Shown in pieces: positions 5,290 to 18,663 of a DNA stretch of 38,347 bases (within the stretch, counting starts at the first letter, position 1; each line of letters begins with the position of its first letter). The DNA is taken from the NCBI GenBank assembly GCA_919903055.1, contig CAKKSB010000078.1, positions 1-38,347 of the forward strand, in the 5' to 3' direction. The notes beneath the pieces are model-generated. The model saw only the letters and a list, made by a program, of their open reading frames with translations, had not been told where the DNA came from and did not search any database. The DNA is from Gammaproteobacteria bacterium. Its GTDB lineage: Bacteria > Pseudomonadota > Gammaproteobacteria > DRLM01. Position numbers and translations under genes: made by a program.

Positions 5290-5427
5290 ATTTGGTTCCC
5301 TGTATTGCCGACTTACCCGGTGGACGGAGGGGTGATAGGATAGCCTATCGGTCCGGCGGGGGGCCATGTTCTTTCCGCCGGCTCTTTATCCTCCGCGTTA
5401 ACGCGTCAGCTACGACTACGGTTGCTT

Positions 5428-6420
5428 ATGTTTGGTTTCAAAAAAGATCGCGCCACCCCGGCGGACGAGGCCCCGCGTCCCGGCCTGTTTCAACGCCTCA
5501 AACAACGTCTCGCCCGCACCCGCGGCAGCCTCACCGACGGGTTGGCGCGTCTGGTGTTGGGCAAAAAGGTCATCGATGAGGATGTGCTCGAGGAGATCGA
5601 GACCCGTTTGCTGACGGCCGACGTCGGCGCCGAGGCCACCGCGCGCATCATCCAGGATCTGACCGCGCGGGTGCGGCGCAAACAATTGGCCGACGCCGAG
5701 GCCCTGCTCGCCGCGTTGAAAGAAGACATGCAGGCCATCCTCGCGCCGTGCAGTGTGCCGCTGGTGATCCCGGCCGGGGTGCGGCCCTTCGTGATCCTGA
5801 TGGTCGGTGTGAACGGGGTGGGCAAGACCACCACCATCGGCAAGCTGGCCAAGCGTTTTCAGGCCGACGGCCTGTCGGTGATGCTGGCCGCCGGCGACAC
5901 CTTCCGCGCCGCGGCGGTGGAGCAGTTGGAGACTTGGGGCGAGCGCAACGGCGTGGCGGTGGTGGCGCAGGCCCGCAACGCCGATCCGGCCTCGGTGGTG
6001 TACGACGCCTTGCAAGCCGCCAAGGCCCGCGGCATCGATGTGTTGATCGCCGACACCGCCGGCCGTCTGCACACCCAGGCCAATCTGATGGAAGAGTTGA
6101 AGAAGATAAAACGGGTGCTGGGCAAGCTGGAGCCCAGCGCGCCCCACGAGACCCTGCTGGTGATCGACGCCGGCACCGGCCAGAATGCCTTGAATCAGGC
6201 CCGCCAGTTCCACGAGGCGGTGGGCTTGACCGGCATCACCCTCAGCAAACTCGACGGCACCGCCAAGGGCGGCATCATCTTCGCCATCGCCGAACAGATG
6301 AAGTTGCCGATCCGTTTCATCGGCGTCGGCGAGGGTATCGACGATCTGCGTCCCTTCGACGCCGAGGATTTCGTCGAGGCCTTGTTCGCCGGGGAGACGG
6401 CGGAGGATGAGCGGAGTTAA
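5428..6420 (+). CDS. ftsY: Signal recognition particle receptor
   Basis: FtsY is the SRP receptor GTPase that docks ribosome-nascent chain-Ffh complexes at SecYEG. The product has 330 residues. The N domain is at about 25-115, and the G domain shows the P-loop GVNGVGKTTTIGKL (127-140), the DTFRAAAVEQL motif (157-167), DTAGRL and the closing (T/S)KLDGTAKGG motif, here SKLD rather than the usual TKLD. The acidic A domain found in E. coli (about 200 residues) is reduced to roughly 20 residues, so membrane attachment must rely on the N-terminal helix. The ATG at 5428 is used; a TTG two codons upstream is in frame but less likely. ftsE and ftsX follow. Confidence 0.96.
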   Translation: MFGFKKDRATPADEAPRPGLFQRLKQRLARTRGSLTDGLARLVLGKKVIDEDVLEEIETRLLTADVGAEATARIIQDLTARVRRKQLADAEALLAALKEDMQAILAPCSVPLVIPAGVRPFVILMVGVNGVGKTTTIGKLAKRFQADGLSVMLAAGDTFRAAAVEQLETWGERNGVAVVAQARNADPASVVYDALQAAKARGIDVLIADTAGRLHTQANLMEELKKIKRVLGKLEPSAPHETLLVIDAGTGQNALNQARQFHEAVGLTGITLSKLDGTAKGGIIFAIAEQMKLPIRFIGVGEGIDDLRPFDAEDFVEALFAGETAEDERS

Positions 6421-6450: not shown

Positions 6451-7131
6451 ATGATCGAATTTCGCAATGTGGGAAAACGTTATCCCAGCGGCCACGCGGC
6501 GCTCAACGAGGTGAGCTTCATTCTCGCGCGCGGCGAGATGGCCTTTCTCACCGGCCATTCCGGCGCGGGCAAAAGCACCTTGCTGAAACTCATCGCCCTC
6601 ATCGAACGTCCCAGCAGCGGCGAGCTGATTGTCAACGAGCGCAACCTCAATCGCCTGGAGCGCGGCCACATCCCTTATCACCGCCGCGGCCTCGGCATGA
6701 TCTTTCAGGACTACCGCTTGCTGCAGGACCGCACGGTGTTCGACAACGTGGCCTTGCCGCTGGTGATCGGCGGTGAATACGACCAGCGCGAGACCGGCCG
6801 GCGGGTGCGCGCCGCGCTGGATAAAGTGGGTTTGCTCGGCAAGGAAAAATATTATCCATTGGAACTCTCCGGCGGCGAACAGCAGCGGGTGGGCATCGCC
6901 CGCGCCGTGGTGCACAAGCCGGTATTGCTGCTGGCCGATGAGCCCACCGGTAATCTCGACCCGGACTTGTCGCGGGAGATCATGGCCCTGTTCGAGGCCT
7001 TTCAGCGGGTGGGTGTCACGGTGTTGATCGCCAGTCACGATCACGACCTGATCGCCCGCATGAACCACCGGGTACTGACCTTGCAGCACGGCAGTCTGAT
7101 CAACACTGTCGCGGAGGCGCCGGCCTCATGA
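6451..7131 (+). CDS. ftsE: Cell division ABC transporter ATP-binding protein
   Basis: FtsE is the ATPase of the FtsEX complex, which in the divisome activates septal peptidoglycan hydrolases through periplasmic partners. The 226-residue protein has a Walker A motif GHSGAGKST (about 36-44), the Q-loop in MIFQDYRLL, the ABC signature [14 protein letters not shown] and a Walker [14 protein letters not shown]. Its length and motifs are those of a complete single-domain ABC ATPase. It follows ftsY after 30 bases and its stop overlaps the ftsX start by four bases (ATGA). No strong ribosome site is seen in front of the ATG, so translation may depend on upstream ftsY. Confidence 0.97.
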
Positions 7132-8126
7132 AACGGCGCGACGGGCAGGGTCAGGAATCGGAAGCGGCGCGCGCCGCGCCACGCAAGACCGGTCCGCGCC
7201 AGCGCGGGCTGGAAAATTACCTCACCCACCATTTGCGCGCCCTCTTCGCCAGCCTCGGCCAATTGGTGCGGACGCCGCTGGCCACTTTGATGATCGCGGC
7301 GGTGATCGGCATCGCCCTCGCCCTGCCCGCCGGGTTTCACGCTCTGCTCGCCAGCGTGCAGACGGTGGCCGCGGGCTGGGAAGGGGATATGGCCCAGATC
7401 TCGCTTTTTTTGAAACCCACGATTAAAGAAGATCAGGCCGCCGCCCTGGCCAAGCGGCTACGCGGCATGCGCGAGGTGACGGCCGTGCGTTACATCTCGC
7501 CGCAGCAGGCGCTGGCGGAGTTCGAACTATCCTCGGGACTGCGCGACGCGCTGGCTTATCTGAATGAGAATCCGCTGCCGGCGGTGCTGGTGGTGCGTCC
7601 GGCGGAGCAATACAGCACGCCCAGCGCCGCCCGGGATTTGCTGCATCGCCTGGAAGCCATGACCGAAGTGGACAGCGCCCAACTGGATCTGGCTTGGCTG
7701 GAGCGATTGCACGCCATGGTCGGATTGGCCGTCCGCGGTGTGTGGCTGCTGGCGGGGGTGCTGGCGGTGGGGGTGTTGTTGGTGGTGGGCAATACCATTC
7801 GCCTCGGCATACAGAATCGCCGGGAAGAAATCGTCGTCATCAAACTCCTCGGCGCCACCGACGGCTTCATCCGCCGGCCCTTCGTCTACGGCGGCATGTG
7901 GTATGGCCTGTTCGGGGGAGTCATCGCCTTGCTGGTGGTAAACGGCCTATTATTGAGTCTGGCTGGTCCGGCGCAACAACTGGCGGCCCTTTACCACAGC
8001 GGGTTTCGCCTGGAGCTGCTGGGCGGTTTGGCCTGTGTGATCGTGCTGGGCGCCGGCGCCGCCCTGGGCTGGCTGGGCGCCTGGCTGGCGGTCAGCCGTC
8101 ATTTGCGCGATGTGGAGCCGGTTTAA
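7128..8126 (+). CDS. ftsX: Cell division protein, FtsX permease subunit
   Basis: FtsX is the inner-membrane partner of FtsE. The 332-residue protein has an arginine- and proline-rich cytoplasmic tail (about 1-35), a first membrane helix (about 48-70, ATLMIAAVIGIALALPAGF), a periplasmic domain (about 75-195) that in the family contacts the hydrolase activator, then three C-terminal helices (VWLLAGVLAVGVLLVVG; YGLFGGVIALLVVNGLLL; LLGGLACVIVLGAGAALGWL). NRREEIVVIKLLGAT between helices two and three is the coupling segment typical of MacB/FtsX permeases. It overlaps ftsE by four bases. It lies 187 bases upstream of rpoH, whose control signals start 22 bases after the ftsX stop. Confidence 0.95.
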   Translation: MKRRDGQGQESEAARAAPRKTGPRQRGLENYLTHHLRALFASLGQLVRTPLATLMIAAVIGIALALPAGFHALLASVQTVAAGWEGDMAQISLFLKPTIKEDQAAALAKRLRGMREVTAVRYISPQQALAEFELSSGLRDALAYLNENPLPAVLVVRPAEQYSTPSAARDLLHRLEAMTEVDSAQLDLAWLERLHAMVGLAVRGVWLLAGVLAVGVLLVVGNTIRLGIQNRREEIVVIKLLGATDGFIRRPFVYGGMWYGLFGGVIALLVVNGLLLSLAGPAQQLAALYHSGFRLELLGGLACVIVLGAGAALGWLGAWLAVSRHLRDVEPV

Positions 8127-8148: not shown

Positions 8149-8177
8149 GGAACTTCTGAATGACCTTAGCACTCATA
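8149..8177 (+). promoter_or_regulatory. Candidate sigma-E (RpoE)-type promoter for rpoH
   Basis: GGAACTT (8149-8155) is an exact match to the sigma-E -35 consensus. After 17 bases comes TCATA (8173-8177), close to the -10 forms TCAAA and TCTGA. The -10 lies inside the left half of the CIRCE operator, so transcription from here would start near 8184, within the operator. E. coli rpoH also has a sigma-E promoter (P3, with GAACTT). This is a pattern match, not proof. Confidence 0.5.
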
Positions 8178-8192
8178 GGAATCGAGTGCTAA
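8166..8192. promoter_or_regulatory. CIRCE operator (HrcA binding site) upstream of rpoH
   Basis: TTAGCACTC (8166-8174), nine bases, GAGTGCTAA (8184-8192) is a perfect match to the CIRCE consensus TTAGCACTC-N9-GAGTGCTAA. HrcA binds this as a heat-sensitive repressor. It lies 121 bases before the rpoH ATG and overlaps a candidate sigma-E promoter. It implies that this genome encodes HrcA, although hrcA is not in the window. Confidence 0.95.
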
Positions 8193-8313
8193 ACTGATGG
8201 AAAGCCACTGAGGTGTGGGAGTGAGACGCCGCGTGGACTATGATTTGCATATTCAGAGCCTTAGCCGGATGAGCGTCAATCGAGCGCCGCCGGATTCACG
8301 AGGGTGAACTTAA

Positions 8314-9168
8314 ATGATTGAACAAAATAAAGGTTTGGAATTGGCCGTGCCGATAGGCAGCCTGGAGGCGTACGGCCAGGTCATCAACCGTATCCCGGTA
8401 CTGACCGCCGAGGAAGAGCGCGCGCTGGCGCGCCGTTTGCGGGATGACAATGACCTGGAGGCCGCCCGCCAACTTATTTTGTCGCATTTGCGTTTCGTGG
8501 TCCGCATCGCCCGCGGTTACGCCGGTTATGGCTTGTCGCATGCGGACCTGATCCAGGAAGGCAATGTCGGCCTGATGAAAGCGGTGAAGCGTTTCGACCC
8601 CGAGATGAACGTCCGGCTGGTGTCCTTCGCGGTGCACTGGATCCGCGCCGAAATACATGAATTCATTCTGCGCAACTGGCGCATCGTCAAGGTCGCCACC
8701 ACCAAGGCGCAGCGCAAGCTGTTCTTCAATCTACGCAGCGCCAAGACCCGCTTGGGCTGGTTCACGCGCGACGAAGTGAACGCGGTGGCCAAGGACCTCG
8801 GTGTCAGCCCGGAGACCGTAGTGGAGATGGAGTCGCGCATGAGCGGTTACGACGCCTCGCTCTACGGCGAAACCGACGACAACGGCGACGAACACCACAC
8901 CGCGCCCATCGCGTATCTGGCCGATCTGCGGGCCGACCCCGCCGAACAGCTGGAGCACGACAACTGGGACGATCACCACAGCGAGAAATTGCACGACGCG
9001 CTGGCCGGTCTCGACGCGCGCAGTCGCGATATTCTCTCGCGGCGCTGGCTGGCGGACAACAAGGCCACCCTGCATGAGCTGGCGGACCAGTATCAAGTGT
9101 CGGCGGAACGCATCCGCCAGCTGGAGCAAAATGCGATCAAGAAACTCAAGGTGGCGTTGGAGGCATAA
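8314..9168 (+). CDS. rpoH: RNA polymerase heat-shock sigma factor (sigma-32)
   Basis: RpoH directs RNA polymerase to heat-shock promoters. The 284-residue protein shows region 2 (about 50-125, with [20 protein letters not shown] and the region 2.4 motif [20 protein letters not shown]) and region 4 with a helix-turn-helix near the C-terminus ([20 protein letters not shown]). The RpoH box QRKLFFNLR is at 133-141; it separates RpoH from other sigma-70 group factors and is used for chaperone/FtsH control. The ATG at 8314 has AGGGTGA upstream. The upstream region carries a CIRCE element and a sigma-E-like promoter, and an intrinsic terminator follows. The leader of about 130 bases could also hold an RNA thermometer, which I cannot fold reliably by eye. 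Confidence 0.97.
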
Positions 9169-17655: not shown

Positions 17656-18663
17656 ATGAATCAGCCAGCGGCCGAGGCCATAGTGCATGTGGCGGCGGCG
17701 GTGATCGTCGACGGCGCCGGCCGGGTGTTGCTGGCGCGCCGCGCGCCGCATCGTCATCAAGGCGGATTATGGGAATTTCCCGGCGGCAAGGTCGAGCCCC
17801 ATGAAACCGCGCGGATCGCTTTGGCGCGCGAGTTGTACGAAGAAGTGGGTATCGTCGTCGAGTCGGCGCGGCCGCTGATCCGTTTGCGTCATGCGTATGC
17901 CGGCAAGACCGTGTTGCTGGATGTGTGGCGGGTGGCGGCGTTTCGCGGCGTACCCCACGGCCGCGAAGGCCAGCCGGTCGAGTGGGTGGCGGTGGATGCG
18001 TTGCTCACGCGGGAGTTTCCCGCCGCCAATCCGCCCATCATCACCGCGGCGCGCCTGCCGCCGGTGTATCTCATCACGCCCGAACCGGAGGACGGCGATG
18101 TGTTTTGGTCCCGTTTGGAAACCGCTTTGGCGGCGGGAGTGCGCCTCGTGCAGTTTCGCGCCAAACAACTCGATGCGCCGACTCAGCGGCGTTTCGCGCG
18201 GCGGGCGATAGAACTCTGTCATGTAGCGGGAGCGCGTCTATTATTGAACGCGCCGCCGGCGTGGGTCGATGAGTTGGGCGCCGACGGTGTGCATCTCACC
18301 TCCGCCCGTTTGCGCGATCTGAGCGAACGGCCTTTGCGGCGCGAATTGTGGGTAGCGGCGTCTTGCCACACGCCGGATGAATTACGGCACGCTCGGGCTA
18401 TCGGGGTGGATTTCGCGGTGGCCGGGCCGGTCTTGCCTACCGCCAGCCATCCCGACGCGCCGCCGCTGGGCTGGTCCGGATTGCGTGATTTGACCGAGGC
18501 GGCGGCCATGCCGGTGTACGCTTTGGGCGGCATGTCGCCGGCCGCCGCGCCGACCGCCTTCGCGCACGGTGCGCAGGGCATCGCCGCCATTTCCTCGTTA
18601 TGGGAGGCGGCGGCGGACTCCGTCACGCTGGCGGCGCGGCTGCGTCAGTTGGAGTCAAGCTAG
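17656..18663 (+). CDS. mutT: Nudix hydrolase (MutT-like) fused to a thiamine-phosphate-synthase-like domain
   Basis: This is a two-domain protein of 335 residues. Residues 1-128 form a Nudix domain with the full box [18 protein letters not shown] followed by YEEVGI (43-66), as in MutT, which hydrolyses 8-oxo-dGTP and so prevents mutations. Residues 133-335 are a ThiE/TenI-like barrel ([59 protein letters not shown]). This fusion is known in many gammaproteobacteria; the role of the ThiE-like half is unclear and it is probably not a housekeeping thiamine synthase. AAGGT lies just before the ATG. The stop overlaps that of convergent yacG by four bases. Confidence 0.92.

Follow-up and report, generated by a model that had tools for sequence, protein, structure and literature searches.

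A CIRCE element before rpoH overlaps two sets of promoter-like motifs in an hrcA-bearing gammaproteobacterium and many of its relatives

The textbook proteobacterial heat-shock response is that of Escherichia coli, in which HrcA is absent, translation and proteolysis control sigma-32, and feedback on this factor operates at the translation and protein levels. Class I control by HrcA and its operator CIRCE is familiar from groESL and dnaK of Bacillus subtilis and from groESL in rhizobia and other bacteria. It is established for HrcA elsewhere that the repressor becomes inactive when unfolded protein titrates GroEL.

A perfect CIRCE before rpoH was predicted in 2004 in Geobacter sulfurreducens, at -51 from the translation start, together with CIRCE elements at groESL and at hrcA-grpE-dnaK-dnaJ (PMC545781, Table 8). 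This is a single delta-proteobacterial prediction, and no sigma-E overlap is described there. The P3 promoter of Pseudomonas aeruginosa rpoH is dependent on AlgU (sigma-E) according to a review (PMC13104619), a documented sigma-E link of the kind we propose below for rpoH of hrcA-bearing genomes. Taken individually, CIRCE and HrcA are already known, as is the control of rpoH by sigma-E; we found no report of a class-wide composite of them or of a CIRCE that overlaps a sigma-E promoter, in a search that stopped short of Permina and Gelfand's 2003 survey, which covers beta-, gamma-, and epsilon-proteobacteria.

The window, by which we mean the whole 38,347-nucleotide stretch of DNA analyzed, carries rpoH directly behind ftsX, the same gene order as in E. 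coli. The features of the locus are as follows.

5422-6420: ftsY, preceding ftsX
6451-7131: ftsE, preceding ftsX
7128-8126, plus strand: ftsX, upstream neighbor of rpoH, above the curated cut-off
8149-8155, plus strand: GGAACTT, sigma-E (RpoE)-type -35, at the position of GAAC in relatives and with the geometry of the E. coli rpoH promoter
8166-8192, plus strand: CIRCE operator, predicted HrcA binding site, with perfect arms and a 9-bp spacer, kept before rpoH in relatives
8166-8171: TTAGCA, would-be poor -35 of the extended -10
8173-8177, plus strand: TCATA, sigma-E-type -10, formed by the last bases of the CIRCE left arm and the first of the spacer; relatives have TCTAA as their consensus
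8187-8195, plus strand: TGC-TAAACT, extended -10-like, built from the CIRCE right arm and three bases that flank it, with T at +29
8300-8305, plus strand: GAGGGT, probable rpoH ribosome-binding site, read from the sequence
8314-9168, plus strand: rpoH, heat-shock sigma factor sigma-32, 284 aa (TIGR02392, 417 bits; cut-off 323)

The CIRCE lies in the 187-bp gap between ftsX and rpoH, 121 bp from the rpoH ATG. Its full sequence is TTAGCACTCATAGGAATCGAGTGCTAA, that is, TTAGCACTC-ATAGGAATC-GAGTGCTAA, with no mismatches to CIRCE (TTAGCACTC-N9-GAGTGCTAA), and it is the sole match in the 38 kb window with up to three mismatches allowed, where shuffled sequences lead one to expect 0.01. An initial sequence-only reading had called the element exact over both arms and spacer; this is correct for the arms, but the spacer is defined by its 9-bp length and has no consensus to which it could be exact. 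Farther into the rpoH leader, positions 8244-8251 read TTTGCATA, of which TTGCATA is kept in same-genus and same-family genomes while most of the leader diverges.

The assembly that contains the window is a 2.4-Mb metagenome-assembled genome (MAG) in 157 contigs, 75% complete. It has one hrcA (PF01628, E = 1.4e-65, 221 bits; a 354-aa frame on contig C141), followed on the same strand by a grpE-like frame, and it has rpoE (TIGR02939, 334.9 bits against a cut-off of 236.15). Absence of hrcA had been named by the sequence-only reading as one of two observations that would refute it, and the gene is present. The host genome has exactly three CIRCE sites, at rpoH (no mismatches), hrcA (none), and groESL (one). 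This set parallels the Geobacter sulfurreducens prediction, which likewise has a perfect CIRCE upstream of rpoH along with CIRCE at groESL and the hrcA operon. Operator and repressor family are also those of class I control, and the other CIRCE elements of the host are at groESL and hrcA(-grpE); the difference is that the target here is the heat-shock sigma factor. The predicted rpoH operator also appears to contain promoter -10 elements, whereas the host groESL CIRCE lies downstream of a standard promoter.

The CIRCE is upstream of a heat-shock gene, rpoH, and overlaps conserved promoter-like motifs, which look like two sets, one of the sigma-E type and one a sigma-70-type extended -10. With regard to the sigma-E set, 22 of 26 rpoH loci have GAAC 15-16 bp ahead of the CIRCE left arm (binomial p = 6e-43). 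In aligned rpoH elements the final TC of the left arm and the first spacer bases spell TCTAA, or something close to it, 16 bp past GAACTT. CIRCE positions +9 to +11 prefer T-A-A in rpoH elements, a preference for which the HrcA palindrome does not account. In the window itself the -35 is perfect and the -10 is TCATA, 17 bp from GAACTT, while most relatives have the consensus -10 at 16 bp; the 17-bp spacing is common to all three same-genus genomes. The off-consensus -10 and longer spacer therefore suggest a sigma-E part of less than average strength in the window.

The right arm extends in aligned rpoH elements to TGC-TAAaaT, the form of an extended -10, and T is present at CIRCE +29 in 79 of 83 distinct rpoH elements, whereas the mirror position, -3, favors no base. 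About 30 of these 83 elements were chosen through the GAAC pattern, which inflates -35 counts in that set and leaves the +29 count unaffected; the 26-locus set above was not so chosen. Such flanking conservation is asymmetrical and therefore unlikely to be part of the HrcA site, and the -35 and +29 features are not consistent at the host groESL and hrcA CIRCEs or at five non-rpoH CIRCEs elsewhere. A sigma-70 and terminator consensus scan of the window found none of either; the extended -10 was missed by it because its -35 is too poor.

Among the 80 RpoH loci closest by sequence, 25 have a CIRCE (up to three mismatches) just upstream of rpoH; the initial reading had proposed looking for such elements in related species, and this outcome supports it. 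The CIRCE-bearing loci come from MAGs labeled Chromatiaceae, Chromatiales, Methylothermaceae, Competibacteraceae, Woeseiaceae, and Thiotrichaceae and from the genera Thiohalomonas, Plasticicumulans, Ketobacter, and Pleionea; within the same 80 loci, there is no CIRCE at rpoH in Pseudomonas, Halomonas, Marinobacter, Methylophaga, Colwellia, or Endozoicomonas. A search for hrcA, which covered 50 of the 80, found it in 24 of 25 CIRCE-positive and 9 of 25 CIRCE-negative genomes. Some hrcA-bearing lineages have no CIRCE at rpoH, for example Chromatiaceae and Nitrococcus. The nine loci concerned (L010, L018, L020, L021, L034, L057, L060, L080, and L083) mostly have a strong sigma-E-like promoter, and it seems that these genomes lost the control of rpoH by HrcA but kept hrcA. 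One other hrcA-bearing genome, G082, has two RpoH genes (C289:38614-39441 and C325:252-1055) at similar distance to the query, and its fetched RpoH locus (L131) has no CIRCE.

We searched 369 genomes from across the Gammaproteobacteria for a strict composite pattern, GAAC-N11/12-TTRGCACTC-N9-GAGTGCTAA; 118 have it, in one copy per genome, and the reversed-pattern control gave no matches in the same 369. All 30 of the copies that were fetched lie directly before an RpoH gene. With hrcA present in 268 of the 369 genomes, 112 have both composite and hrcA, 6 the composite only, 156 hrcA only, and 95 neither (Fisher p = 1e-12; here as elsewhere, because the genomes are related, there are fewer independent events than the p-values imply). 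That CIRCE goes with hrcA across the class supports the earlier suggestion that rpoH is an HrcA/CIRCE target. Five of the six composite-bearing genomes without an hrcA match are 62-88% complete and one is 99% complete, and all six have a second CIRCE.

The strict pattern does not capture every case. We took 30 hrcA-bearing genomes without it, 29 of which had an RpoH locus, and 25 of these 29 have a CIRCE (up to three mismatches) before rpoH; many hrcA-bearing loci retain CIRCE without a clear GGAACTT. By extrapolation rather than direct count, roughly nine in ten hrcA-bearing members of the class would have a CIRCE at rpoH. On these counts a CIRCE at rpoH is normal for hrcA-bearing Gammaproteobacteria and no exception, a point that the sequence-only reading missed, as it did the 2004 Geobacter prediction and the overlap with sigma-E-type and sigma-70-type promoter motifs, and the predicted rpoH operator is an ordinary, well-conserved one in an under-appreciated place. 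A phylum-wide search matched 14 of 299 genomes, which is a floor and not a frequency because the CIRCE-to-rpoH spacing allowed was narrow and the sample was weighted to complete genomes; the window itself, with its longer spacing, was missed.

Escherichia coli differs from this genome in having neither CIRCE nor HrcA. The best CIRCE match at its rpoH has eight mismatches, in agreement with the earlier statement that enteric rpoH lacks the element, and a search of the E. coli control genome yielded no HrcA. The two share the ftsX-rpoH context. The GAACTT-N16-TCTGA geometry of E. coli rpoH P3, seen there as TGAACTT-N16-TCTGA, has spacing identical to the consensus geometry of the relatives, against 17 bp in the window.

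We think it probable that the CIRCE element belongs to a composite rpoH control region, in which a sigma-E-type promoter and a sigma-70-type extended -10 promoter overlap one HrcA operator and GroEL-dependent HrcA represses both. Free GroEL would keep HrcA active, and HrcA on CIRCE would cover the -10 region of each promoter and hold rpoH transcription down. When unfolded proteins occupy GroEL, HrcA would become inactive and rpoH would be derepressed together with hrcA-grpE(-dnaK) and groESL; sigma-E would add envelope-stress transcription of rpoH only after HrcA release; and newly made GroEL would make HrcA active again and turn rpoH off. Since the operator overlaps both promoters, HrcA would gate both, and the supply of sigma-32 would depend on GroEL. 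From sequence we infer that the promoters are active and where they start, that HrcA binds and represses at rpoH, and that GroEL controls HrcA there; for repression and GroEL dependence homology is the guide.

It could be instead that the CIRCE is a functional HrcA site and the sigma-E assignment is wrong, so that some other factor binds GGAACTT/TAA and the only HrcA-controlled promoter is of the sigma-70 type. The many hrcA-bearing loci that have CIRCE and no clear GGAACTT are in favor of this, as are the almost invariant right-arm extended -10 and the off-consensus sigma-E -10 of the window. We nevertheless regard it as improbable, given that GGAACTT-N16-TCTRA has the geometry of E. coli rpoH P3, that an AlgU-dependent rpoH P3 is known in P. 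aeruginosa (PMC13104619), and that the sigma-E motif is kept in relatives with neither CIRCE nor hrcA, where a sigma-E-like promoter precedes rpoH in 12 of 16 loci (p < 0.05).

Two further explanations would deny the element its role as an operator for rpoH. A CIRCE is a perfect inverted repeat, here 5' of rpoH, and a transcript-stability effect has been described for the Bacillus CIRCE; both speak for a stem-loop in the mRNA leader that mainly alters rpoH mRNA stability or translation. Such a role is very unlikely here, since the presence of CIRCE follows hrcA, the conservation of the right-arm flank suits a -10 element, and the rpoH leader and start fold no more strongly than shuffles (z = -0.67), a search that was made for an RNA thermometer and found none. 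In addition, the complete stem would not be transcribed from either promoter because both inferred starts are in or after the CIRCE. That the element is a relic or chance match with no present function is scarcely credible, even granting that the host genome is a 75%-complete MAG and the evidence all sequence-based: none of the three same-genus genomes has a mismatch in the arms, although the adjoining leader has diverged, CIRCE at rpoH is kept across many families, and the chance expectation is very small (0.01, above) even at three mismatches.

Returning to the composite region with its HrcA-gated promoters, the occurrence of the same arrangement across many hrcA-bearing Gammaproteobacteria means that the E. 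coli-style circuit may be a later, stripped-down version. In CIRCE-less relatives, a test for a fossil CIRCE gave 2.58 of 7 left-arm matches against 1.72 +/- 0.20 in shuffles, whereas the right arm in register was not above shuffles. The left-arm excess is no more than suggestive, given the relatedness of the loci and the position of that arm right against the -10. Loss of CIRCE from a retained promoter in hrcA-less relatives would fit these observations, a fit that falls short of proof. An HrcA-controlled, sigma-E-driven rpoH promoter may then be the ancestral gammaproteobacterial state, one AND-type switch for cytoplasmic and envelope stress, from which the E. coli and Pseudomonas circuits arose by loss of hrcA and decay of CIRCE with the sigma-E promoter kept; we see this history as evenly balanced between right and wrong. 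Such a switch, if real, would sense cytoplasmic stress through GroEL and envelope stress through sigma-E.

If HrcA controls rpoH itself in most Gammaproteobacteria that have hrcA, both classical systems would be parts of one hierarchy, in which the GroEL level sets sigma-32 transcription, and the enteric circuit would be derived from it by simplification. The locus would also be a clear case of a single operator in which some bases belong at the same time to -10 elements for two different sigma factors.

Several smaller observations were made along the way. Five Pseudomonas/Stutzerimonas loci (L041, L043, L045, L053, and L067) have a GCARTGCTA-ACTGC-like segment after the sigma-E-like promoter, at the place of the CIRCE right arm but shifted by one base; it is possibly an operator fossil kept as an extended -10. 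Two tandem CIRCE right arms lie upstream of rpoH at locus L139 of genome G060 (gagtgctaaaatttTTAGCACTC...GAGTGCTAA), which suggests a double HrcA site there. In the phylum-wide sample, four genomes of a single family outside the class, f200 (G425, G434, G453, and G497), have an RpoH-like motif preceded at a suitable distance by a CIRCE right arm. Elsewhere in the window, at 17656-18663, a NUDIX domain is fused to a thiamine-monophosphate-synthase domain.
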